DNA from: a virus
IMG/VR virus record: IMGVR_UViG_3300006802_000392
Span: 1-28,776 of that record
Strand: one strand, 5' to 3'
DNA: 28,776 nucleotides
In this document: piece by piece, positions 4,804 through 28,776 of the stretch
Numbering within the stretch: the first letter of the stretch is position 1
How the letters are laid out: each line of letters begins with the position of its first letter
Translations under genes and position numbers: made by a program
Notes under the pieces: model-generated
Seen by the model: the letters and a program-made list of their open reading frames with translations, nothing else
Database searches by the model: none
What the model was told of the DNA's origin: nothing

Positions 4804-6452
4804 TCCGTTTTCGTAGCATTCTGAATGGCGATATACGCACTAAATGGCGGCGTGAATCTTTCGACGCTGGCTATGGATCGTTTGTGCCATTCAGTCCGCT
4901 ATTGGCAAATGTTTCACCTGCTATTCAGGCTAATTTTCTGGATTTAACCCCATATACTGCCCCCGTGTGGTTAGATAACAGCGGCACAACGGGCAACCGG
5001 ATGTATTATGACAGCACAGGAGTCCTAACGTGGGCTCCGGCGAATCTCATTCCGACATCCGCAACGCTGACAACGCAGACAATCACAAACGCGATAACCG
5101 CTGGCGGTGATTACATGCTGTCGGCAGAAGTAGCTGCCGGCGCAAGTGTAGCTGTAACAGGCGGCGCTACAGCCACATTAAATACCTCTAGTAGTTCGGT
5201 AGGTTCGCGGTATTATGTCAAGCTATCGGCTTTGTCGACGGGCTCGTTGACGTTGACAGTTACTGGAGCCGTCACTAATGCGCAATTAGAGCGTATCACA
5301 TACCAGACAACGCCTAGAACGCTAATAGCGACTACAGGAGCGCAAAAATTTCTCCCTAGATTTGACAGTTATTATGATACAACCGATAGCACTTGGAAAG
5401 CTAAAGGGCTATTGATAGAAGAAAGTCGTCAGAACCTTGCGACATATAGTGAGCAATTAAATAACTCAAACTGGACGCTTGGTTTTTCTGGCCTACTTGC
5501 TTTTGGAAGCGGCTCTATCGCCAATGACACTGTTGCTCCAGACGGAACGACAACAGCGGATAAAATTGTCGAGAACACTGCCGCTTCGGCGCAGCATAGA
5601 TTTTTCAATAATTCCGCGTTTACCGTAACTAACGGCGCAAGCGTAGCGTATTCAATATTTGTGAAAGCAGCAGGTAGAACATCGGTAAGGCTTACAGACA
5701 ACGCTTTGCAAGGGGCAACATTTGACTTAACGACAGGCGCGGTAAGTCTTGTGAGCGTTGGTGTTACTGCAACAGCAGTTCCCGCCGGAAACAATTGGTG
5801 GCGTATTGGAATTACCAAAACATCAGGGTCTGCGTCAGGGCGTATTGCTATCTATTTTGTTAAGGATGGGGCGACGACTTATACGGGCGACGGTGTGTCG
5901 GGCATTTATGCTTGGGGCGCGCAAGTTGAGAATAGTTCTCCTTCTGTGTCTAGCTATATTTCAACAGTAGCCGCTTCCGTGACTCGCTCTGCCGACATTA
6001 TAAGTCTTTCGGGCGCTGCCTTGACTGCGGCCGGCGCGGCTACAGGATCTGCTATTGTGCAAACGTCTGCGTGGTTAGACGCCAGCATTGTAAGAGATCT
6101 GTTATCCACATCTACAAGTCGTCGGTTGCTATATTCAAACAGCAGCAATACCGCGATTTCGACGACTAACGGAACGACTGCGCTTTCGGCAACGCTCGGT
6201 AGCGCCGGGACATTCACTGGGGGCTCGGCAAGAACTGGTATCGCGTGGGGGGCTTTGGGCCGGTCTATTGTTGGCAATAATGGCGTTTTGATTGCGGACG
6301 CTGTCGTATTAGGCTCTGGAGCCACCGTAAATCTTGGCGGCTATGCGTCCACCACTACTTTTGTGGGGTGGGTAGCATCTATGGCGCTATATGACCAAAA
6401 ACTTCCTAATGTCCTTCTAAAACAAAAGTCATCAGTAGGGGCGACATATTAA
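4800..6452 (+). CDS. fibre or head-spike protein with carbohydrate-binding-like domains (550 aa)
   Basis: Three beta-rich blocks are visible. Residues about 82-170 form a CBM-like sandwich ending GAVTNAQLER. Residues about 202-395 carry KGLLIEESRQNLATYSEQL followed by NNSNWT and then a second CBM-like domain (DGTTTADKIVENTAAS through WGAQVENSS). Residues about 400-550 resemble a laminin-G / concanavalin-like module. The phrase 'Q-N-L-A-T-Y-S-E-Q-x-N-x-x-x-W' is common in phage spike and fibre proteins that display carbohydrate-binding modules on the virion. The gene overlaps both neighbours by 1-4 nt and belongs to the AT-richer cassette. The role is inferred as adsorption to surface glycans. 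Confidence 0.75.
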   Translation: MIRFRSILNGDIRTKWRRESFDAGYGSFVPFSPLLANVSPAIQANFLDLTPYTAPVWLDNSGTTGNRMYYDSTGVLTWAPANLIPTSATLTTQTITNAITAGGDYMLSAEVAAGASVAVTGGATATLNTSSSSVGSRYYVKLSALSTGSLTLTVTGAVTNAQLERITYQTTPRTLIATTGAQKFLPRFDSYYDTTDSTWKAKGLLIEESRQNLATYSEQLNNSNWTLGFSGLLAFGSGSIANDTVAPDGTTTADKIVENTAASAQHRFFNNSAFTVTNGASVAYSIFVKAAGRTSVRLTDNALQGATFDLTTGAVSLVSVGVTATAVPAGNNWWRIGITKTSGSASGRIAIYFVKDGATTYTGDGVSGIYAWGAQVENSSPSVSSYISTVAASVTRSADIISLSGAALTAAGAATGSAIVQTSAWLDASIVRDLLSTSTSRRLLYSNSSNTAISTTNGTTALSATLGSAGTFTGGSARTGIAWGALGRSIVGNNGVLIADAVVLGSGATVNLGGYASTTTFVGWVASMALYDQKLPNVLLKQKSSVGATY

Positions 6453-18390: not shown

Positions 18391-20234
18391 TGGACGTTGA
18401 ACTGCCGGACGGCACCGTTATTGAAGGCGTTCCTGAAGGAACGACTAAGGCTCAACTCATGGCCAAGCTGCGTAGCAGCGGGTATGACGTCAGTAAGCTT
18501 GCGCCACCTTCCGATGCAGGGAAATTTCGATTTGCGTCGCCGGAGACGGAACAAACCGGCGTCGAATTTATCGGCGGGTTGGCTAAAGCCGCTGAAGATT
18601 ATTTTGCTAAACGTCCGATGCCCGAATATGTCGAACGCGTCGCCGGGAATATTCCGCAAGACGTTATGGCCATTTCGCAGGGATTCACGCCCGAGGCGTT
18701 GGCGGCTACAGGGCAAGCGTTACGTGAACGCCCGGTCGAAACACTGTCAACTGTTGGCAGCGAAATGCTTCGCGGCGCAGGTAGGTTTGTTCGTGACCCG
18801 GCAGGCACTTTTGCCGAAGCGCCCATATCTACGCTGATGGGGCTTCAGGGCGCGCAGCTTCTTCGCGCGCCTAGCCGTTTTGCCGTCAATACTCTGGCCG
18901 AAGTTGCTGCGCCGCCAGTGCGCCGCGCGTTGTCGCCAGCCAATCGCATGATTTCTGACGTGTTTGGCGCGCCTGAAATCCAGCCTGCGCTTCAGGCTGC
19001 GCCCCCTGGCACGTCGGTTTCGCAGGCTCTGGCGGATCTTAACGCGCCGCGCGCTCAAGCCGTCGCCAGACAGGCGGCGGAGATTGTGCCGGAGGCGACC
19101 TACGGAGCGCGTCAGGCACAGGAAGCCTCGCGTGCGCAGCGCATGGCGCAGGTGGCCGGCACGCCGGAAGAATTGGCAGTTCTTGAAGAAGCGCGGTCGG
19201 CAGAAGCGGCAGCTAACTATGGCCGCGCTTTCGCGCAAATAATGCCGGAGACACCAGAGCTTACGTCTTTAATGGGTAAGCCATCTATTAAACGCGCGTT
19301 TAGCCGTGCGGCGCAGATTGCCAGCGAACGGGGGCGTCCGTTTAAGATCGGCGAAACAACCCCCGAAACCGTCACGCCATCTACAATATTGGATGAATTT
19401 GGCCGTCCAGTCCAAAAAGTAACGCCGGCTCAGACCGCTGAATTTCCAGTGGAAAGCCTTCATTATGTGAAGATGGCGTTGGATGATATGATTCGCGATC
19501 CAGAAACTTTTGGTATCGGCGCAACCGAAGTTTCCGCTATTAGAAACACACGGCGCAAGTTCATTTCACAGCTTGAAAAGAACGAAGCCTACGCAACGGC
19601 GCGTCAAAACTACGCCGAACAAAGCGCGCCAATCAACCGTATGCAAGTGGCCCAGCAACTCCAGAAAGCGCTTATTGCGCCGTTGACCGGCGAAGCTACG
19701 CGGGCTGGCGTATTCGCAACGGCGGCCGAAGAAGCGCCGCGCACCATACGAAAAGCCACGGGCCAGCAATTCTTCAATAAACTTGAAGATGTGCTTGATT
19801 CCGAAGATATGCAGGTTGTCAACGACATCCGTGATGAGTTCCGCCGTACCAAACTGGCTGACGAACAGGCTAAACTTGGCCGCGCCGCCGCGCCAGAGGT
19901 TGACGAATTGGCGTCCGCCAAGATTGCATCGGCTATGAATATTCCGTTCCTTAACCGGGCGTGGACGATTGCCAACACGATTGTTAAACGGTCGCTTGGT
20001 AAGATTGACGAAAAGCTCGCGACTGAGATCGGCATGATGATGCAAGATCCGGCCGAACTTAGCAAAGCCATAACTAAAGCTAAAGAGTATGAGGCCAAGA
20101 CGGCCGGCATAGTCGAAAAAGCAAGAGCCCGTCGCCAAGGTGTTGTCAAAGCCGCGCCGCGTCAGGCCATAGCTGGATCGGTCAGCTTTCAGAATGTCAT
20201 GGCCCCCGAAAACCGCAACGCGATGGCGAGATGA
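18390..20234 (+). CDS. internal virion / ejection protein (614 aa)
   Basis: The 614-residue protein begins DVELPDGTVIEGVPEGTTKA, then QLMAKLRSSGYD, the short 'polypeptide-DGT...G-T-x-A-x-x...K' motif common at the start of phage internal virion proteins. The rest is mainly long amphipathic helices rich in Ala, Glu, Arg and Gln, with no enzymatic motif. This is typical of large ejected core proteins (compare P22 gp16 and gp20 by position, not by visible identity). It is the third and last of the ejection block and immediately precedes lysis genes, to which it is linked by an ATGA overlap. Confidence 0.72.
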   Translation: MDVELPDGTVIEGVPEGTTKAQLMAKLRSSGYDVSKLAPPSDAGKFRFASPETEQTGVEFIGGLAKAAEDYFAKRPMPEYVERVAGNIPQDVMAISQGFTPEALAATGQALRERPVETLSTVGSEMLRGAGRFVRDPAGTFAEAPISTLMGLQGAQLLRAPSRFAVNTLAEVAAPPVRRALSPANRMISDVFGAPEIQPALQAAPPGTSVSQALADLNAPRAQAVARQAAEIVPEATYGARQAQEASRAQRMAQVAGTPEELAVLEEARSAEAAANYGRAFAQIMPETPELTSLMGKPSIKRAFSRAAQIASERGRPFKIGETTPETVTPSTILDEFGRPVQKVTPAQTAEFPVESLHYVKMALDDMIRDPETFGIGATEVSAIRNTRRKFISQLEKNEAYATARQNYAEQSAPINRMQVAQQLQKALIAPLTGEATRAGVFATAAEEAPRTIRKATGQQFFNKLEDVLDSEDMQVVNDIRDEFRRTKLADEQAKLGRAAAPEVDELASAKIASAMNIPFLNRAWTIANTIVKRSLGKIDEKLATEIGMMMQDPAELSKAITKAKEYEAKTAGIVEKARARRQGVVKAAPRQAIAGSVSFQNVMAPENRNAMAR

Positions 20235-21993: not shown

Positions 21994-22180
21994 TTATCAT
22001 CTCCATGATGGCCGCCCTCTCTCTTAACATGCGCAGCACAGTGTAACGTTGATGCAGGCGCACAAGGATAGTCGAGCGCCGGGCGTGACGCTGTTCTTCC
22101 TCCAGTAGGTCTAAGACCTCCTGTTCTGTCAGATCGGCCAGCCGATCATTAAGTTCTTTCCATGTTAGACAGCTCGGCAA
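21968..22180 (-). CDS. small helical phage protein, TTG start (70 aa)
   Basis: The 70-residue, highly charged helical protein (TWKELNDRLADLTEQEVLDL, then LEEEQRHARRSTILVRLHQR and YTVLRMLRERAAIM) occurs between the helicase and the DUF6378-like gene. Similar short proteins with LTEAEVLxLLEEE...RRxSILxRLHQRY are familiar in phage replication regions, without known role. The start is TTG at 22180, supported by GGAG 7 nt upstream; no ATG is available in frame near it. It overlaps the helicase gene by 32 nt and the next gene by 26 nt, so translation is likely coupled. Confidence 0.7.
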   Translation of the reverse strand: MPSCLTWKELNDRLADLTEQEVLDLLEEEQRHARRSTILVRLHQRYTVLRMLRERAAIMEMINEPARTTV

Positions 22181-23438
22181 GGGCCAACTCCGCTAAAGAT
22201 TTCTTGTCGTGTAACGCATCCCATATGCGCTCGTCAATAGTTTTATTACACATGACGACATAACACCAGACCTCTCGCGTCTGGCCGCTGCGATGCAGCC
22301 GGCCCACGGTTTGTTCGAATAGCTCCAGCGACCACGGCAACGATAGAAACACGATCTTGTTGCCGCCAAACTGGAGGTTTAGCCCGTGGCCGGCGCTTTT
22401 GGGATGGATCGCCAAAAGTTCAACCTTGCCGGCGTTCCAGCGCTCGATGGCGTCGGGCGCATCTATTGTAGTAACATTAAATGATCTTTGAAGCTCGGCT
22501 AGTTCTTCTTTGTAATTGTAGACGACGATGGTGTTGTCTCGCTGGTTTTCGTCGAGGATGTCTCGGAGAGATTCAAACTTTTGGCGTCCAAACCACTGAG
22601 CAATGCCTTGGCTATCATAAGCGAAGCCGGAGGTAAGCTGCTGAAGTTTGTTTGTGACAGCAGCCGCTGTTGGAGCCGTGATCTCTTCATGCACATATTC
22701 CTTCTTCATGTTCTCGTATGGCGTGCGGTCGTCAAGATCGCAGCGCATTTCAACGACGTGTAACGGCGGCAGTTTATCCTTATACTCGCCAGGCTCTAGC
22801 ACGTATGTCGCCGGCTTGATCGTCTCCATGACTTTGGGCAGTGCTTGCGGTAGCGGCTCCCACTGGCCATAGTCGCGGTTGACGCAGTAAAAATATTGTT
22901 GAAGAAACGCACCTTTGCTGCGGCCTAGCAGCGTCTGGTCAATGACCTTGCACTGGCCGAACACGTCTTCTAGGCCGTTTGATGTAAACGATCCCGTCAG
23001 ACCCCAGCGGATCTTAAATTGATCAAGTATCTTAAGCAGGAATTTAAATCGTTTACCGGAAGGATTTTTGAGACGTGTCAGCTCGTCGAATACAATGCCA
23101 TCAAAGTCTTTCGGATCTATTGACGGGATGTTGTCATAGTTGGTGACGACTATATTCACGTCAGCAGCGAACGCTTTTTTGCGCTGCGCTGGCGTGCCAA
23201 CAGCGACAGCCATTCTCATGTGTTCGGCCCACTTCGGCCGCTCAACAGGCCACACGTCAGTGCAAACGCGCTTCGGCGCTAACACAAGCCAGCGGTCGCA
23301 ATAACCTTTAGCCGTCATGTCCGCCATCGCCGTCAATGTAATCGCTGTCTTGCCCGCGCCTACTGGCGCAAGTATCATGGCTCGGTCATGGGCGAAGAGG
23401 AAGTCGGCGGCGTCGTGTTGATACGGTCGTAAGTCCAT
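22149..23438 (-). CDS. SNF2-type (superfamily 2) DNA helicase/translocase (429 aa)
   Basis: Superfamily 2 motifs occur in order. LRPYQ (3-7) is the Q/I entry, APVGAGKTA (24-32) is Walker A with Lys30, and IVFDELTRLKN (115-125) is the Walker B equivalent, DEL rather than DEAH. LTGS (147-150) is motif III, HPKSAGHGLNLQ (345-356) is motif V, and QTVGRLHRSGQ (376-386) is motif VI with its arginine fingers. The order and the R-L-H-R-S-G-Q form are those of phage SNF2-like helicases. It likely remodels replication or recombination intermediates together with the VRR-NUC protein encoded just upstream. The start overlaps that gene by 64 nt. Transcription is opposite to the polymerase operon. Confidence 0.92.
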   Translation of the reverse strand: MDLRPYQHDAADFLFAHDRAMILAPVGAGKTAITLTAMADMTAKGYCDRWLVLAPKRVCTDVWPVERPKWAEHMRMAVAVGTPAQRKKAFAADVNIVVTNYDNIPSIDPKDFDGIVFDELTRLKNPSGKRFKFLLKILDQFKIRWGLTGSFTSNGLEDVFGQCKVIDQTLLGRSKGAFLQQYFYCVNRDYGQWEPLPQALPKVMETIKPATYVLEPGEYKDKLPPLHVVEMRCDLDDRTPYENMKKEYVHEEITAPTAAAVTNKLQQLTSGFAYDSQGIAQWFGRQKFESLRDILDENQRDNTIVVYNYKEELAELQRSFNVTTIDAPDAIERWNAGKVELLAIHPKSAGHGLNLQFGGNKIVFLSLPWSLELFEQTVGRLHRSGQTREVWCYVVMCNKTIDERIWDALHDKKSLAELALAELSNMERT

Positions 23439-23698
23439 CGGTCAACCTGTTCACGGCTCCAAAGACACGCATAATTTTGGTTAAGCCTGTGCATATCTTC
23501 GGCAAATATTTTTTGCAGCGCGGATAGTTTGCCGCCATCTTTTTTTAGCTCTACAAACCACGTTTCACCGTTTGGTAGACAAACGATCCGGTCGCTTACG
23601 CCGCGATTTGATAGAGAATTGAACTTGTATGCTATGCCGTTAAGCGATTGAACTGACTTAACAAAATAGCGCTCAATGTCTTTTTCTAGATCTTGCAT
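23375..23698 (-). CDS. VRR-NUC domain nuclease (107 aa)
   Basis: The 107-residue protein has VSDRIVCLPNGETWFVELKK, then DGGKLSALQKIFAE. Asp36, Glu50 and Lys52 form the PD-(D/E)xK core, and Gln62 lies in the following helix. GVSDR-x13-E-x-K-x4-G-x-L-S-x-x-Q is the VRR-NUC signature. Stand-alone phage VRR-NUC proteins cut branched DNA structures, and pairing with an SNF2 helicase is a common phage arrangement. It is the first gene of the leftward unit, starting at the divergent gap. No clear ribosome site precedes its ATG. The C-terminal 20 residues (NTTPPTSSSPMTEP) are disordered and overlap the helicase start. Confidence 0.9.
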   Translation of the reverse strand: MQDLEKDIERYFVKSVQSLNGIAYKFNSLSNRGVSDRIVCLPNGETWFVELKKDGGKLSALQKIFAEDMHRLNQNYACLWSREQVDRWTYDRINTTPPTSSSPMTEP

Positions 23699-23759
23699 AA
23701 AAAACTATTGACACACTCGTAAAGAAAAGTCTAGTGTCGAAACATTGAAAGGTAAGGTA
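23699..23759. promoter_or_regulatory. divergent control region between the two replication units
   Basis: This 61-bp gap separates the VRR-NUC start (leftward) and the Cas4-like nuclease start (rightward), so it should hold promoters for both. Rightward: TTGACA at 23708-23713, an 18-nt spacer and TAGTGT at 23732-23737, with the start codon 22 nt beyond. The -35 is a perfect consensus, while the -10 is weak. The segment TTGACAC (23708-23714) and GTGTCGAA (23734-23741) form an imperfect inverted repeat covering both promoter boxes, which could be an operator. I see no convincing leftward promoter. Confidence 0.55.
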
Positions 23760-24854
23760 ATGGCGCACAGCAATATCGTCGGCGGTTCGACCGCTAAACG
23801 TCTCATCAAATGCCCCGGTTCGCGGGCGCTGGTCAACACAGTCCCTGAAAAGCCCACAAGCAAATACGCTGAAGAAGGCTCGCGTCTGCATGACGCGATG
23901 CACATGATCTTGTCGCATGGCGGCAGTGTCGAAGATTATCCTGACAATGAGAAGTTAATCCTTGCACTTGACGCGCTGAACGAGATCGACCCTAATGCGG
24001 AGCTTGAGTTTGTCACGGAGGTGAACGTCCATTTCAATGACTTTCTTGCCGGAGTTTACGGTTCTTGCGATCTCGCTGGCCGTATACGCAATCGTGCGAT
24101 AATCCTCGACTGGAAGTTTGGGGATGGCGTTGCGGTAGACGCCGAAGAAAATGAACAGCTCATGTTCTACACGGCCGCAGGGATGCGGACGGAAGCGCTG
24201 CGCTGGGTTTTTGAAGGTGTTGACGAGATCGAACTCGTCATCGTGCAGCCGCCTTACGTTAAGCGCTGGGTGACGACGCCCGGTCGCATCAAGGCGTTTG
24301 AGCGCACGCTGTATGATGCCGTGCAGGCGTCATTCAAACCTAACGCGCCGTTCGCTGCTGGCGATCATTGTCGTTGGTGCGCCGCCAAGCCTGTCTGCCC
24401 GTTGCTTACAGGTCAGCTTGAGCGCGCTGTTGCGACTAAAGTTAAAGCTATTGATGTGGAGAAAGTCGGCAATGCTCTGGCGTTTGCGATCCTTGCGGAA
24501 GAATGGGCTAAAAGCGTCCGTGAACTGGCCCAGACGATGTTGGAAAACAACGCGCCAGTGCCGGGATGGAAGCTCGTCCCCAAGCGCGCCACTCGTCAAT
24601 GGGTTAATGATGAAGGAGCGCGTGAAGCTCTTGAGCAAATGGGGCTTGATTCCGAAGAATTGATTGTGACCGAACTGAAATCGCCGGCGCAAGTGGAGAA
24701 GGTGCTTAAAAAACACAAGCTCGAACTGCCGAAGGATCTCGTCGTCGCAGTCTCAACAGGTCATACAATCGCACCGGAGTCAGATCCGCGTCCGGCTGTC
24801 TTGACGATAGGCAAGGACATTCGTTCTGCCTTCTCTAAACTTGAGGTAAAGTAA
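23760..24854 (+). CDS. Cas4/RecB-like Fe-S exonuclease, DUF2800 family (364 aa)
   Basis: Counted from ATG 23760 (ribosome site AAAGGTAAGG), the protein has an N-terminal Cys18 in TAKRLIKCPGS and His44 in EEGSRLHDAMH. The PD-(D/E)xK core is GSCDLAG with Asp104, then ILDWKFG with Asp117 and Lys119, with Gln133 following. A C-terminal cysteine cluster has Cys204, Cys207 and Cys213 (CRWCAAKPVC). One N-terminal and three C-terminal cysteines are the 4Fe-4S arrangement of Cas4/AddB-type nucleases, and the layout matches phage DUF2800 proteins. It likely trims DNA ends during phage recombination or replication. A longer start at TTG 23745 is possible but lacks a ribosome site. It overlaps the next gene by one base. 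Confidence 0.88.
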   Translation: MAHSNIVGGSTAKRLIKCPGSRALVNTVPEKPTSKYAEEGSRLHDAMHMILSHGGSVEDYPDNEKLILALDALNEIDPNAELEFVTEVNVHFNDFLAGVYGSCDLAGRIRNRAIILDWKFGDGVAVDAEENEQLMFYTAAGMRTEALRWVFEGVDEIELVIVQPPYVKRWVTTPGRIKAFERTLYDAVQASFKPNAPFAAGDHCRWCAAKPVCPLLTGQLERAVATKVKAIDVEKVGNALAFAILAEEWAKSVRELAQTMLENNAPVPGWKLVPKRATRQWVNDEGAREALEQMGLDSEELIVTELKSPAQVEKVLKKHKLELPKDLVVAVSTGHTIAPESDPRPAVLTIGKDIRSAFSKLEVK

Positions 24855-25480
24855 TGTCTAATATTGTGAAGTTCGGCAACGCCAATCTCCCCACCGCTGC
24901 GTCTCTTGCTGAGTCGCTGCGTAAGCTCGACACCGAAGCTGCTGTCGGTTCTGCCATCCTGAAAATGGATAAGACCGGCCATTGGGTTTACGGTGCGGAT
25001 CAGACTGAGATCGACAAAGATGGACGCTGGGCGGTCAATCCGTTCTCGTTCGTTCACGGTTTCATTGCGTGGGGCGAAGGCGAGGTGCTTGGCGAGAAGA
25101 TGGTGTCCATTACGGAGCCGCTTCCCGAACTGGATGTGCCCCCGCCTGGCGCTAAGCGTGGATGGGAGCCGCAGGTTGGCATGAGCGTCAAGTGCTTAGA
25201 TGGTGAGGATGCTGGCGTTGAAGCGCGCTACACAGTCACATCTGTTGGTGGTAAGCGCTCTATGCATCAGCTCGCCATGAAGGTTGCCGATCAGGTCGAG
25301 AAGAATCAGGACGCGCCAGTGGCCGTCGTGAAACTCGGCTCGGAATATTATCAGCACAAGTCCTACGGTCGCGTCTACACTCCGGTGTTTGACGTGATCG
25401 AATGGATTTCGCTCGATGGCGCGCCGGCCGAATCGGTCGATGGCTCCGCTGGTGACACTGGCCGCCGTCGTCGCGGCTGA
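24854..25480 (+). CDS. phage ssDNA-binding-like protein (208 aa)
   Basis: The 208-residue protein (ILKMDKTGHWVYGADQTEID, then WAVNPFSFVHGFIAWGEGEV, GWEPQVGMSVKCLDGEDAGV, and QAPVAVVKLGSEYYQHKSYG by similarity of DAPVAVVKLGSEYYQHKSYG) is a conserved phage protein. It regularly follows the DUF2800-type nuclease in phage replication operons. It has a beta-rich body with many aromatic residues and an acidic-to-basic C-terminal tail (ESVDGSAGDTGRRRRG). That is suggestive of an OB-fold single-strand binding protein, but the usual acidic SSB tip is absent. The binding function is inferred from partner and composition. A strong terminator follows 9 nt after the stop. Confidence 0.7.
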   Translation: MSNIVKFGNANLPTAASLAESLRKLDTEAAVGSAILKMDKTGHWVYGADQTEIDKDGRWAVNPFSFVHGFIAWGEGEVLGEKMVSITEPLPELDVPPPGAKRGWEPQVGMSVKCLDGEDAGVEARYTVTSVGGKRSMHQLAMKVADQVEKNQDAPVAVVKLGSEYYQHKSYGRVYTPVFDVIEWISLDGAPAESVDGSAGDTGRRRRG

Positions 25481-25488
25481 TAATAGGG

Positions 25489-25523
25489 AGGGCGGCGTAG
25501 GGGAACTGCGCCGCCCTTTTTTT
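25489..25523 (+). terminator. strong intrinsic terminator / attenuator
   Basis: AGGGCGGCG (25489-25497) pairs perfectly with CGCCGCCCT (25509-25517). The loop is 11 nt, and T-run 25517-25523 follows at once. This is a textbook rho-independent terminator on the + strand. It lies inside a row of co-directional replication genes, and the next gene begins within 2 to 14 nt of the T-run. No separate promoter is visible in the gap. Confidence 0.9.
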
Positions 25524-25536
25524 CATGGGGCCAAAC

Positions 25537-26166
25537 ATGAGCTATCTTTTCCCTTACGCTGGCGATGATCGTCGTCGCGCTAAACTAAAGCCTAAAAAGC
25601 CTGCGCCGCTTCAGCATCCCAGACGCGTGCTGCCGCAGGCTCCGGTGCCGGAGCATGTGATTAGTTTTCAAGGTGTGGCGAATATGCCGCTTCCGTTACG
25701 TCAGATCATGCTTGAGGTGTGCAAAGAGCATAACGTCGTGCCGATAGATATTGTCGGCACGGACAGCCGTAAGCATGTCGTGCAGGCGCGACGGGTGTAT
25801 TGCATACGCGCTAAAGAGGAAACGAATTGCAGCTATAGCAAGATCGCACGGTCAATAAATAAAGACCATACGACCGTGATCTATTTCGTAAAACAGGGGT
25901 TGGCGGGCTGTTCATTAGAGCCGATGAAGGTGACGCATGTCCCCACGCCGCGCAAGCTGAAAGGCCCCGTCGTCGATCTGACTGCGTTAGAGCAACAGTA
26001 TTTTGACCTCTCGCAGGAAGGGCTCACGGATAAAGAGATCGCGCAGCGTATGGATAAATCATACGAAGCTGTGCGCCATTACCCCAAACGCATCAAGAGG
26101 AAAATGGCGCTGGCTCTTACATTGAAGGAGAAAGATGATGGGCTTTTATCAGGCGCAGAAAATTGA
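25537..26166 (+). CDS. DnaA domain IV-like DNA-binding protein with second HTH (209 aa)
   Basis: After a basic disordered N-terminus (RRRAKLKPKKPAPLQHPRR), residues about 50-122 match the DnaA C-terminal DNA-binding domain. They read PLRQIMLEVCKEHNVVPIDI, then VGTDSRKHVVQARRVYCIRA and SYSKIARSINKDHTTVIYFV, with the DnaA-box-reading signature DHTTV at 110-114. Residues about 149-190 (LTALEQQYFDLSQEGLTDKE, then IAQRMDKSYEAVRHYPKRIK) form a second HTH of the LuxR/sigma-4 type. There is no AAA+ ATPase domain. It may bind DnaA-box-like sites to start or regulate phage replication, or act as a transcription factor. ATG 25537 has GGGG 6 nt before it; ATG 25525, two bases after the terminator T-run, would add four residues. 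Confidence 0.82.
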   Translation: MSYLFPYAGDDRRRAKLKPKKPAPLQHPRRVLPQAPVPEHVISFQGVANMPLPLRQIMLEVCKEHNVVPIDIVGTDSRKHVVQARRVYCIRAKEETNCSYSKIARSINKDHTTVIYFVKQGLAGCSLEPMKVTHVPTPRKLKGPVVDLTALEQQYFDLSQEGLTDKEIAQRMDKSYEAVRHYPKRIKRKMALALTLKEKDDGLLSGAEN

Positions 26167-26407
26167 GAAGCTGGAAGCCGATAAAGAGTTGGCGGCGAAC
26201 TACAGAGACGCTTTTGAGATGCTGGCTAACCAAGCGCGGACGATTGAGAAAAAGCATGAACGCATCGCGGAACTTGAAGCAGCGCTGAAACCGTTTGCTG
26301 AATTAGACGCACATTGGGCTGGCGACAAAATGCCTCTTCAGCCTAAGTCGGTCATGCTCAACCCATTGCCGATTCTCTACGCAATAAAGGCTTTAAAAAA
26401 TGATTGA
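26135..26407 (+). CDS. small coiled-coil phage protein (90 aa)
   Basis: The 90-residue protein is mostly a charged coiled coil (KIEKLEADKELAANYRDAFE, then MLANQARTIEKKHERIAELE) and ends with PLPILYAIKALKND. Short coiled-coil proteins with 'IAELEAALKPFA' are common in phage early regions and have no assigned function. The start is ATG 26135 or ATG 26138, with AAGGAG just upstream. It overlaps the DnaA-like gene by 32 nt and the next small gene by 8 nt. Confidence 0.7.
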   Translation: MMGFYQAQKIEKLEADKELAANYRDAFEMLANQARTIEKKHERIAELEAALKPFAELDAHWAGDKMPLQPKSVMLNPLPILYAIKALKND

Positions 26408-26570
26408 AGATCTGTCACTATATCTTTTCTTTTACGGCTTCGGCCTAGCATCGGGAGTGTTTGTATCATGGTTAGAATCATATGCTGCGTCGCGCTCATA
26501 TCGTCATCAGCAGCCGCCCAAGAAATCAGTGTCTGGGGCGGATCAAACGGCCCGGTCGCGACTGAACTGA
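26400..26570 (+). CDS. small membrane protein (56 aa)
   Basis: ATG at 26400 overlaps the stop of the coiled-coil gene and opens a 56-residue frame ending TGA 26568-26570. Residues about 7-25 (LYLFFYGFGLASGVFVSWL) are one membrane segment. The remainder is a basic, Pro and Ser-rich tail (SRSYRHQQPPKKSVSGADQT). The AGG of the upstream AAAGG (26387-26391) is close enough to initiate, and translational coupling is likely. The last 103 nt also encode the N-terminus of the following secreted protein in another frame. I recognise no family; the frame could be chance, but its membrane segment plus exact coupling favour a real gene. Confidence 0.5.
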   Translation: MIEDLSLYLFFYGFGLASGVFVSWLESYAASRSYRHQQPPKKSVSGADQTARSRLN

Positions 26571-26707
26571 GCTATCCTAACGAGAACTTCTACTACACGC
26601 CCTACGGCCAGATCAGCGCGCCAAAGGTGGGTGACATGACTGTATACAACGGCCCTAATGGAGAGTATCTTGGCTACCGCTTAGAAGGAGGAAACAATGG
26701 CGAATGA
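26468..26707 (+). CDS. small exported protein with signal peptide (79 aa)
   Basis: The product starts with a cleavable signal peptide (VRIICCVALISSSAAAQ; likely cut between Ala17 and Gln18). The mature part of about 62 residues (EISVWGGSNGPVATELSYPN, then ENFYYTPYGQISAPKVGDMT and VYNGPNGEYLGYRLEGGNNG) is rich in Gly, Tyr and Asn and has no Cys. It resembles nothing I can name. An exported phage protein in the early region might modify the envelope, for example superinfection exclusion, but this is inference. GGGAG lies 12 nt before the ATG, slightly far. The C-terminus overlaps the HNH gene by 11 nt. Confidence 0.6.
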   Translation: MVRIICCVALISSSAAAQEISVWGGSNGPVATELSYPNENFYYTPYGQISAPKVGDMTVYNGPNGEYLGYRLEGGNNGE

Positions 26708-27131
26708 GATTTGGCGCGATGTCGTCGGGTTTGAAGACGCCTATCAAGTCAGCAATATGGGCCGCGTCAAATCCAAGTCGCGGCTAGTTGCTATGTCAGC
26801 ATCACATAAGTCGGTCGCTTATTTGAGCCGTCGTGAAGGGCGTTTGTTAAAACCGGGCAGAGCAAGCACCGGATATTTTACGGTTGCACTTGGGCGTGGT
26901 AATTCTAGAACATTGCACAGTTTAGTGGCCGAAGCCTTTATTGGCCCGTGTCCTATTGGCTATGAGGTTTTGCATATAGATGGCACACGAACAAATAATC
27001 GCGTCGATAATTTACGATACGGAACGCGGCACGAAAATATAATGGACGCCGTTAAACACGGAAGTTGGATGACTAAAGAACGTCATCAGGCGCTCGTCAA
27101 AGGTCGTCAAACACGATGGGGCGACCGATGA
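26697..27131 (+). CDS. HNH homing-type endonuclease with NUMOD4 domain (144 aa)
   Basis: The N-terminal NUMOD4 motif (EIWRDVVGFEDAYQVSNMGR, then VKSKSR) is followed by an HNH_3 nuclease core: LHSLVAEAFIGPCPIGYEVL, then HIDGTRTNNRVDNLRYGTRH. His74, His93, Asp95, Asn101 and Asn105 are candidate active-site residues. The C-terminal basic helix (MTKERHQALVKGRQTRWGDR) may bind DNA. Such genes are usually selfish free-standing homing endonucleases. It has a strong AAGGAGG ribosome site and overlaps the polymerase start as ATGA, so it has been neatly built into the operon. No intron is visible nearby. Confidence 0.9.
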   Translation: MANEIWRDVVGFEDAYQVSNMGRVKSKSRLVAMSASHKSVAYLSRREGRLLKPGRASTGYFTVALGRGNSRTLHSLVAEAFIGPCPIGYEVLHIDGTRTNNRVDNLRYGTRHENIMDAVKHGSWMTKERHQALVKGRQTRWGDR

Positions 27132-28776
27132 TATTTTGGTGCGATTTTGAAACCAAGAGTGAATGCGATCTGAAGACGACGGGCGTATATAACTATGCAC
27201 GACACCCATCCACGCAAGTTATCTGTATGTCCTACGCTTATGACGACGGCCTTGTGCAGACATGGCGGCCGGGCGAATCTATGCCGCCAATCAAAAGCCA
27301 GATCCGCGCTCATAACGCGGCGTTTGAGCGGCTTATCTTTTGGCATGTCCTAAAGATGGAGATTCCACTTGAGCAATTTTATTGCACTGCTGCGCAGGCT
27401 CGGGCGAACTGCGCGCCTGGTAGTCTCGAGGATGTTGGCAGATTCGCCGGCACGGATATGCGTAAGGATCATCGCGGGGCTGCTTTGGTGCGGGCTTGTT
27501 GTATTCCTCCTTTTAGAGATGATCTCGTACCCGAACTGATCGAATACTGCGAACAAGACGTGCGCACCATGCGCGCCGCCAGCAAAGCCATGCGGGAGTT
27601 GACGCCAGAAGAACTGGAGGACTATCATGTTAACGAGCGCATCAATGATCGTGGCGTTCTTGTCGATCAGCGTCTATGCCGCGCGGCGGTCAAATATGCG
27701 GCTGACGAACTTCAAGAGATCGAAGCTACGGTTAAGACCATCACGAACGGTGAGATCACGACTGTCAGAAGCCCTCGAATGCGAGAATGGGTCTTTGAAC
27801 GTGTTGGATCAGAAGCGCGTAAACTTATGGAACGTGCCGATAAAGTCTCAATCGACAAGTCAGTTCGGGCCAACTTACTGGCCATAGACGATCCCGAAGA
27901 GGTGCCTCCCGATGTCAGAGAAGTCATACAATGCGCCGATGACCTATGGGCGTCTTCTGTTGCTAAGTTTAATCGCCTTGATAACCTTGCTTGTGCTGAT
28001 AGTCGTGTTCGAGGCGCTTTTGTCTTTGCCGGCGGATCAGCGACAGGACGCGCTTCCTCGTATGGCGCACAAGTCCACAACTTCACACGTAAGTGCGCCG
28101 ATGACCCCGAAGCCGTGCGACATTCAATGGTTCGAGGTCATGCCATTGTGCCTAAATACGGACACCGTGTCACGGACGTATTGCGCGGTATGCTACGGCC
28201 AGCCCTGATACCTGAAAAAGGTAAGCAGTTCGTCGTCGCTGACTGGAGCGCCATCGAAGGTCGGGTCAACCCGTGGCTGTCCGGCAGAGGTGAGGATAAG
28301 TTACAGGCGTTCCGTGACAGGCTTGACCCTTACATTGTCAACGCGGCGGCTACGTTTCACGTCAAATATGAACAGGTCGATAAGTCGCAGCGTCAGGTCG
28401 GTAAAGTTCAGGAGCTGGCGTGCGGATTCGGCGGCGGTGTCGGAGCGTTCGCTGCAATGGGCCGCGTCTATGGTTTGCATTTGCCTGAGCCTGAAGCGAA
28501 ACGCATGGTCGACGCTTGGCGTCAGGCTAACCCGTGGTCTGTGCCGTTCTGGTCTGATCTTGAGGTTGCTTACATTCGTGCACTGCGCAATCCAGGTAAG
28601 ATATTCGAAGCTGGTAAAATAAAATACTTGGCCGACAAACAACACCTTTGGTATGCTCTGCCTTCTGGCCGGGTGCTTTGTTACCCGAACGCCCGGTTCG
28701 AAGAAGATGGTTCGATCACCTATTCAAAGGCGTCTTGGAAGCCTGCGGCGGATGCTAAAGAGTGGCCTCGGGGTCG
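27128..28776 (+). CDS. DNA polymerase, family A with 3'-5' exonuclease (partial, runs off the right edge)
   Basis: ATG at 27128 overlaps the HNH stop, and the frame stays open to the edge (549 codons). Exonuclease motifs are FWCDFET (Asp6, Glu8), AHNAAFE (Asn63) and EYCEQDV (Tyr140, Asp144). The polymerase part shows motif A, VVADWSAIEGRV, with catalytic Asp372. Motif B is QRQVGKVQELACGFGGGVGA, with Arg422 and Lys426; Leu430 takes the place of Phe762 of E. coli Pol I, and Phe434 that of Tyr766. Motif C (HDE) lies beyond the window. It replicates the phage genome with the proteins of this operon. Leu at position 762 is one of the three known phage variants and affects speed and fidelity. No 5' nuclease domain is present in the visible part. 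Confidence 0.93.
   Translation, partial: MIFWCDFETKSECDLKTTGVYNYARHPSTQVICMSYAYDDGLVQTWRPGESMPPIKSQIRAHNAAFERLIFWHVLKMEIPLEQFYCTAAQARANCAPGSLEDVGRFAGTDMRKDHRGAALVRACCIPPFRDDLVPELIEYCEQDVRTMRAASKAMRELTPEELEDYHVNERINDRGVLVDQRLCRAAVKYAADELQEIEATVKTITNGEITTVRSPRMREWVFERVGSEARKLMERADKVSIDKSVRANLLAIDDPEEVPPDVREVIQCADDLWASSVAKFNRLDNLACADSRVRGAFVFAGGSATGRASSYGAQVHNFTRKCADDPEAVRHSMVRGHAIVPKYGHRVTDVLRGMLRPALIPEKGKQFVVADWSAIEGRVNPWLSGRGEDKLQAFRDRLDPYIVNAAATFHVKYEQVDKSQRQVGKVQELACGFGGGVGAFAAMGRVYGLHLPEPEAKRMVDAWRQANPWSVPFWSDLEVAYIRALRNPGKIFEAGKIKYLADKQHLWYALPSGRVLCYPNARFEEDGSITYSKASWKPAADAKEWPRG

Follow-up and report, generated by a model that had tools for sequence, protein, structure and literature searches.

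The DNA-binding domain of the bacterial replication initiator DnaA, encoded in a phage without an ATPase and followed by a second helix-turn-helix (HTH), raises the question of whether such a protein starts replication, interferes with the host or regulates phage genes. The locus lies in a 28.8-kb virus record, here called the window (the whole stretch of DNA analyzed, 28,776 nucleotides). The reading that we favor, at a probability of roughly one half, is that this protein is an exchangeable regulator with two DNA-binding HTHs and a retargeted specificity, acting on the early/replication region of the phage. The relevant features are as follows.

22149..23438, minus strand: SNF2-like DNA helicase (Pfam, PHROG)
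23375..23698, minus strand: VRR-NUC-like small nuclease (sub-threshold Pfam match)
23763..24854, plus strand: DUF2800 / PD-(D/E)XK exonuclease (Pfam, PHROG)
24854..25480, plus strand: 208-aa conserved protein, phrog_9528 (PHROG match)
25485..25523, plus strand: intrinsic terminator-like hairpin and U-tract, directly upstream of the two-HTH gene (RNA fold)
25537..26166, plus strand: two-HTH protein gene, 209 aa (DnaA domain IV and LuxR/sigma4-type HTH)
25702..25893, plus strand: DnaA domain IV, Bac_DnaA_C (Pfam E 3.4e-13; fold match)
~25864-25875, plus strand: DHTT recognition helix within DnaA domain IV
25978..26109, plus strand: second HTH of LuxR (GerE)/sigma-70 region 4 type (Pfam below cut-off; fold match)
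26697-27131: NUMOD4/HNH homing-type endonuclease (Pfam)
27134..28774, plus strand: DNA polymerase family A, PolA (Pfam), continuing past the window end

Reading the frame from its first ATG would give a 213-aa protein (25525-26166); the gene is more likely 25537-26166, because its ATG matches the starts of the homologues (M-S/A/T-Y/W-LFPYAG in L002 and L028-L033). The sequence-only reading had recognized in this protein a DnaA DNA-binding domain with the signature SINKDHTTV, a C-terminal LuxR-like HTH and no AAA+ domain, and all three observations were borne out. The SINKDHTTV motif is present, the Bac_DnaA_C match spans residues 60-123 in the numbering of the 213-aa protein (49.8 bits, cut-off 31.5), and the DnaA equivalog model TIGR00362 aligns over its last 70 positions (E 1.8e-10), scoring 40.5 bits against a cut-off of 343.9. 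Pfam searches of the 209-aa protein detected no AAA+ domain or Walker motif, and no catalytic domain was found in it. The second HTH (residues 152-195) matches GerE with E=1.8e-4 and 21.5 bits, under the 23.5 cut-off, Sigma70_r4_2 with E 2.1e-4, likewise below the curated cut-off, and the DosR C-terminal domain with E 7.5e-4. GerE is above cut-off in the homologue from L038 (8.8e-8, 32.1 bits). Pfam recovered no sigma region 2 in the window protein, just region-4-like and weak region-3 matches (E up to 1), and its PHROG search returned no DnaA-like family, phrog_27829 included, at E 0.1, whereas L069 does match. The two-domain layout without an ATPase in this open reading frame (ORF) is far beyond chance.

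An AlphaFold2 model built on 26 sequences, comprising the window protein and its relatives, predicts two ordered helical domains (pLDDT ~97) joined by a less certain linker and preceded by a low-confidence N-terminal tail. Model residues 52-129 superpose on the DNA-bound crystal structures 3pvp and 1j1v, in which domain IV of M. tuberculosis and E. coli DnaA, respectively, sits on DnaA boxes (Z 12.4); structure prediction, the check on which the sequence-only reading had staked its claim, thus yields domain IV. Residues 142-208 are predicted to form a four-helix HTH resembling those of the LuxR-type proteins EsrB (Z 8.5) and DesR (Z 8.4), so that the second HTH, the weaker of the two by sequence, is supported by its predicted fold and by the L038 homologue.

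The window protein shares the domain IV fold and the DHTT helix with bacterial DnaA (TIGR00362), but lacks its AAA+ domain III, domain I and Arg399 and adds the second HTH; as had been proposed, a double HTH without an ATPase is not a standard initiator. Stand-alone phage DnaA-like proteins (pelagiphage HTVC010P type, UOF77628, phrog_27829), for which we found no functional test, likewise carry DnaA_C without AAA+ near early/replication genes, but they are devoid of the C-terminal LuxR-type HTH. With LuxR/NarL (GerE) and sigma-70 region 4 proteins the window protein has in common a C-terminal HTH of four helices that resembles the DosR C-terminal domain, whereas the receiver, the ligand-binding domain and sigma region 2 are missing from it. 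Bac_DnaA_C is also reused outside DnaA as the C-terminal module of TnpA-REP HUH transposases of subclass 2.1, where it targets sites unlike DnaA boxes (PMC6006769), but there it is fused to an enzyme.

A profile scan of viral contigs yielded 81 distinct viral DnaA_C domain sequences, all in ORFs of <330 residues without a Walker motif; the stand-alone domain IV is therefore common in phages. It is known rather than new: pelagiphage genomes carry annotated examples (labeled DNA replication initiation or Bac_DnaA_C domain-containing), as does a Manatee Spring podovirus (UOF77628), and PHROG 27829 is named DnaA-like replication initiation protein. What is new here is the DnaA_C-HTH fusion, on which we found no paper in the open-access literature, the location of its gene immediately downstream of an intrinsic terminator, and the exchange of its alleles. 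At least seven viral contigs besides the window carry the fusion layout (L002, L028, L029, L031, L032, L033 and L038), with identities to the window protein of ~77-78% over the full length in L002, 52% in L028, 32% in L029-L032 and 34% in L033, a 62-kb contig whose flanking proteins, in the part fetched, do not match; the L038 fusion is a minimal version of 126 aa with both domains above Pfam cut-offs. In six further contigs (L013, L014, L015, L019, L020 and L023) the layout is split: a gene for a 67-73 aa HTH protein shares ~22 bp with the start of the DnaA_C gene, and this small HTH corresponds in alignment to the second HTH of the window protein. L148 has the reversed order: DnaA_C is encoded first, and a small overlapping gene downstream of it gives a weak HTH match. 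Since the two domains are fused in some phages and adjacent in others, they probably act together. By eye, a 218-aa protein in L101 (5614-6270) has its parts the other way round from the window protein, with an HTH-like segment ahead of DnaA_C.

Beyond viruses, a scan of bacterial genomes returned mainly full-length DnaAs, with L130 (Pseudohoeflea) as the sole clear stand-alone case; L108, L120 and L136 are possibly DnaAs truncated at contig ends. The phage hit H3 proved to be a full-length DnaA, and the plasmids searched gave no DnaA_C match.

The sequence-only reading had placed the gene in a replication operon. This stands insofar as exonuclease and polymerase genes adjoin it, and a DUF5906/RepB-primase protein is encoded downstream of PolA in L002, but a strong terminator-like hairpin separates the gene from the upstream operon. 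The window hairpin folds with -28.9 kcal/mol (z -6.5), and a hairpin with a different stem sequence occupies the same place in L002 (weaker, z -1.9), in L028, L029, L031 and L038 (z -3.6 to -4.7) and in L033 (z -3.5, without a good U-tract), so that a terminator-like hairpin precedes every fusion gene examined; in L029 a small ORF lies between the two. In L002 and L031 the ATG comes right after the U-tract, so close that a Shine-Dalgarno sequence does not fit in between, and a GGGAGG lies 5' of the hairpin; the window start codon comes shortly after the U-tract, not immediately. The arrangement of a start codon at or near the U-tract with a Shine-Dalgarno-like GGGAGG 5' of the hairpin is seen at 25478-25537 in the window, 7960-8004 in L002, 1205-1248 in L031 and 905-948 in L148. 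Folding of the hairpin would bring GGGAGG to a normal distance from the start codon, creating a hairpin-bridged ribosome site of the kind found in phage T4 genes.

In the relatives, the two-HTH gene occupies a slot flanked by the genes for the 208-aa protein and DNA polymerase A, which we surveyed with the 208-aa protein as query. Most contigs with a readable slot and a 208-aa protein at least 90% identical have DnaA_C there. The L138 slot instead holds a protein with a weak sigma4/LuxR-type HTH, that of L142/L143 small ORFs, and that of L151 (208-aa protein 73% identical), straight after the hairpin, a 121-aa HTH-only protein with a weak HTH and no DnaA_C. At nearly 60 further loci, mostly with a 61-70% identical 208-aa protein, the slot is without DnaA_C. 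Whole-contig searches located DnaA_C outside the slot in the L143, L151 and L163 contigs and detected none in five 37-41 kb contigs of distant kin with a related 208-aa protein/PolA pair. Most viral records are fragmentary, and such absences are therefore weak evidence. The interval between the 208-aa protein and PolA (window 25480-27116) ranges in length from ~0.7 to 3.4 kb among the relatives that bear DnaA_C, where small ORFs fill it; in the window it additionally holds the NUMOD4/HNH gene. A 121-aa protein in L038 (1889-2254, minus strand) with a C-terminal Sigma70_r4_2 HTH above cut-off resembles the HTH-only protein of the L151 slot. The 208-aa protein itself has no Pfam match and no credible PDB match; the notion of a single-stranded-DNA-binding protein, suggested by position alone, gains nothing from either database, and neither backs the family name of phrog_9528, nucleotidyltransferase, or any other function.

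The slot content diverges far more than its surroundings. Flanking proteins are 87-97% identical among relatives in which the two-HTH protein is 78, 52 or 32% identical; L028 and L029 in particular match the window at 93-97% identity in helicase, exonuclease, polymerase and 208-aa protein, compared to 52% and 32% in the two-HTH protein. The dS of the two-HTH gene is 1.99 for L028 (neighbors 0.34-0.75) and saturated for L029 (neighbors 0.23-0.84), and its dN/dS is 0.08-0.20 in the close relatives where it is computable. With dS elevated as well and a low dN/dS, recombinational replacement by old alleles under purifying selection explains these sequence patterns better than rapid adaptive evolution, which we rejected in its favor. 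The VRR-NUC-like gene (23375-23698, minus strand) is also divergent, at 62-66% against 87-97% for its neighbors, and may mark another site of exchange in the replication region.

In the E. coli DnaA complex, Arg399 and the DHTT helix contact DNA. The basic loop of domain IV enters the minor groove and the HTH helix the major groove, with a role for T435 (PMC11511705). The window protein keeps D433, H434 and T435, and has Ser in place of R399 and Arg in place of Q408. R399 is kept in 27/28 bacterial DnaAs versus 59/81 viral domains, and Q408 in 27/28 versus 24/81. DHTT is kept in most members, so DnaA-box reading may be partly retained, although DHTT conservation in the viral set is biased upward by a search pattern that partly contained DHTT (the loop and Q408 figures are unaffected). 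The proposed scan for clustered DnaA boxes showed neither enrichment nor clustering in the records covered: the window, itself a fragment, has two exact TTATNCACA sites 4.3 kb apart and 23 one-mismatch sites versus 17.8 expected, and no cluster above chance was detected in it or in 10 related records. Iterons and repeats near the gene did not exceed shuffled controls in the seven sequences scanned, most of them fragments, and scans of the window and related records revealed no operator or binding site for the two-HTH protein. An inverted repeat considered as an operator (TTGACAC-N19-GTGTC, 23708-23738), which overlaps a divergent promoter, is uninformative for this protein because the GTCTAGTGTC part of the promoter persists in L138, whose slot has no DnaA_C.

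These observations favor a regulator, an option that the sequence-only reading had included, on the grounds of the slot, the exchange and the transcription-type module that a LuxR/sigma4 HTH represents. The HTH-only proteins in the L138 and L151 slots argue in the same direction, as do the two contigs (37.5 and 39 kb) with two DnaA_C genes each (5923-6189 and 35649-35933 in the L147 record; 19962-20171 and 27700-27972 in the L149 record), which are easier to explain for a regulator than for an initiator. By eye, an extra copy from the L149 contig (L217 1486-1845) lies near an XRE-type repressor-like gene. In the proposed mechanism, a DnaA domain IV freed from its ATPase and retargeted would pair with a LuxR/sigma4-type HTH, and the two modules would bind two half-sites or two neighboring sites on phage DNA; binding would control transcription, and perhaps timing, of the early/replication region, and the protein would not itself open an origin. 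Its gene would be an exchangeable cassette in a variable slot and, lying directly behind a terminator, would probably be expressed via terminator read-through or a local promoter.

The main rival, which we consider possible but unlikely, is a phage origin-binding protein, in which DnaA_C marks the origin and the DUF5906 primase-helicase is brought in by the second HTH or by the N-terminal tail, in the manner of lambda O and other replisome organizers. Alleles would then be exchanged along with their origin, and lambda O alleles and origins do swap jointly. The position of the gene between exonuclease and PolA, with the DUF5906/RepB-primase gene downstream of PolA in L002, suits this account. 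So do the neighbors of 21 diverse stand-alone DnaA_C loci (helicases, DnaB, primase/helicase, replication-initiation and exonuclease families), which indicate an early/replication-region context rather than enrichment, and which weaken the regulator reading because they also fit a replication role. Against an origin binder stand the lack of iteron or DnaA-box clusters within and around the gene in the seven mostly fragmentary sequences, the two contigs with two DnaA_C copies, the five 37-41 kb contigs with none, and L138, whose exonuclease and 208-aa protein are 92-98% identical and whose 11.6-kb contig has no DnaA_C.

The sequence-only reading had also suggested that the protein may recruit or displace host DnaA at DnaA-box-like sites. 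Such a role has so far not been supported: the boxes are neither enriched nor clustered, the protein has an altered version of the basic loop with which DnaA reads one half of its box, and close relatives with near-identical replication neighbors have a very different allele or no DnaA_C. An antagonist of this kind, a free domain IV filling DnaA boxes at oriC or DnaA-controlled promoters and shutting off host initiation, is improbable. E. coli DnaA domain IV alone is sufficient for specific DNA binding (PMC5835720) and the window protein retains the DHTT recognition helix, but the antagonist fits poorly because a decoy should retain host specificity, yet R399 is Ser here and Q408 is replaced; furthermore, a fused second HTH and allele exchange between near-identical phages are unexpected for a simple decoy. 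Very improbable is a role as a DNA-targeting accessory to some nuclease or recombinase encoded in the variable slot, comparable to that of the Bac_DnaA_C tail in the TnpA-REP transposases. The NUMOD4/HNH gene lies close by, but neither L028 nor L029 shows it beside the fusion gene, and the window protein has no catalytic domain.

A more general form of the regulator reading, which we regard as speculative and doubtful, would make DnaA domain IV a retargetable, recombinationally exchanged specificity cassette that, together with a second HTH (fused or from an overlapping gene), sets which early/replication-region sites are recognized, such that phages with near-identical replication machinery differ in replicon or regulon specificity and the terminator must be read through. 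Phage stand-alone DnaA_C proteins are often annotated as replication initiation proteins despite the missing ATPase. The fused and split forms, the exchange and the lost DnaA-box contact suggest that some, perhaps many, of them bind DNA at new targets as regulators. Confirmation of this would put right the annotation of many phages and provide a natural series for how DnaA domain IV shifts specificity. Among the viral sequences, the DHTT recognition helix is itself changed in L220 (1537-1788) and L221 (1495-1740), which read RTHPAV and RTHAAV (THPA/THAA), pointing to altered DNA specificity.
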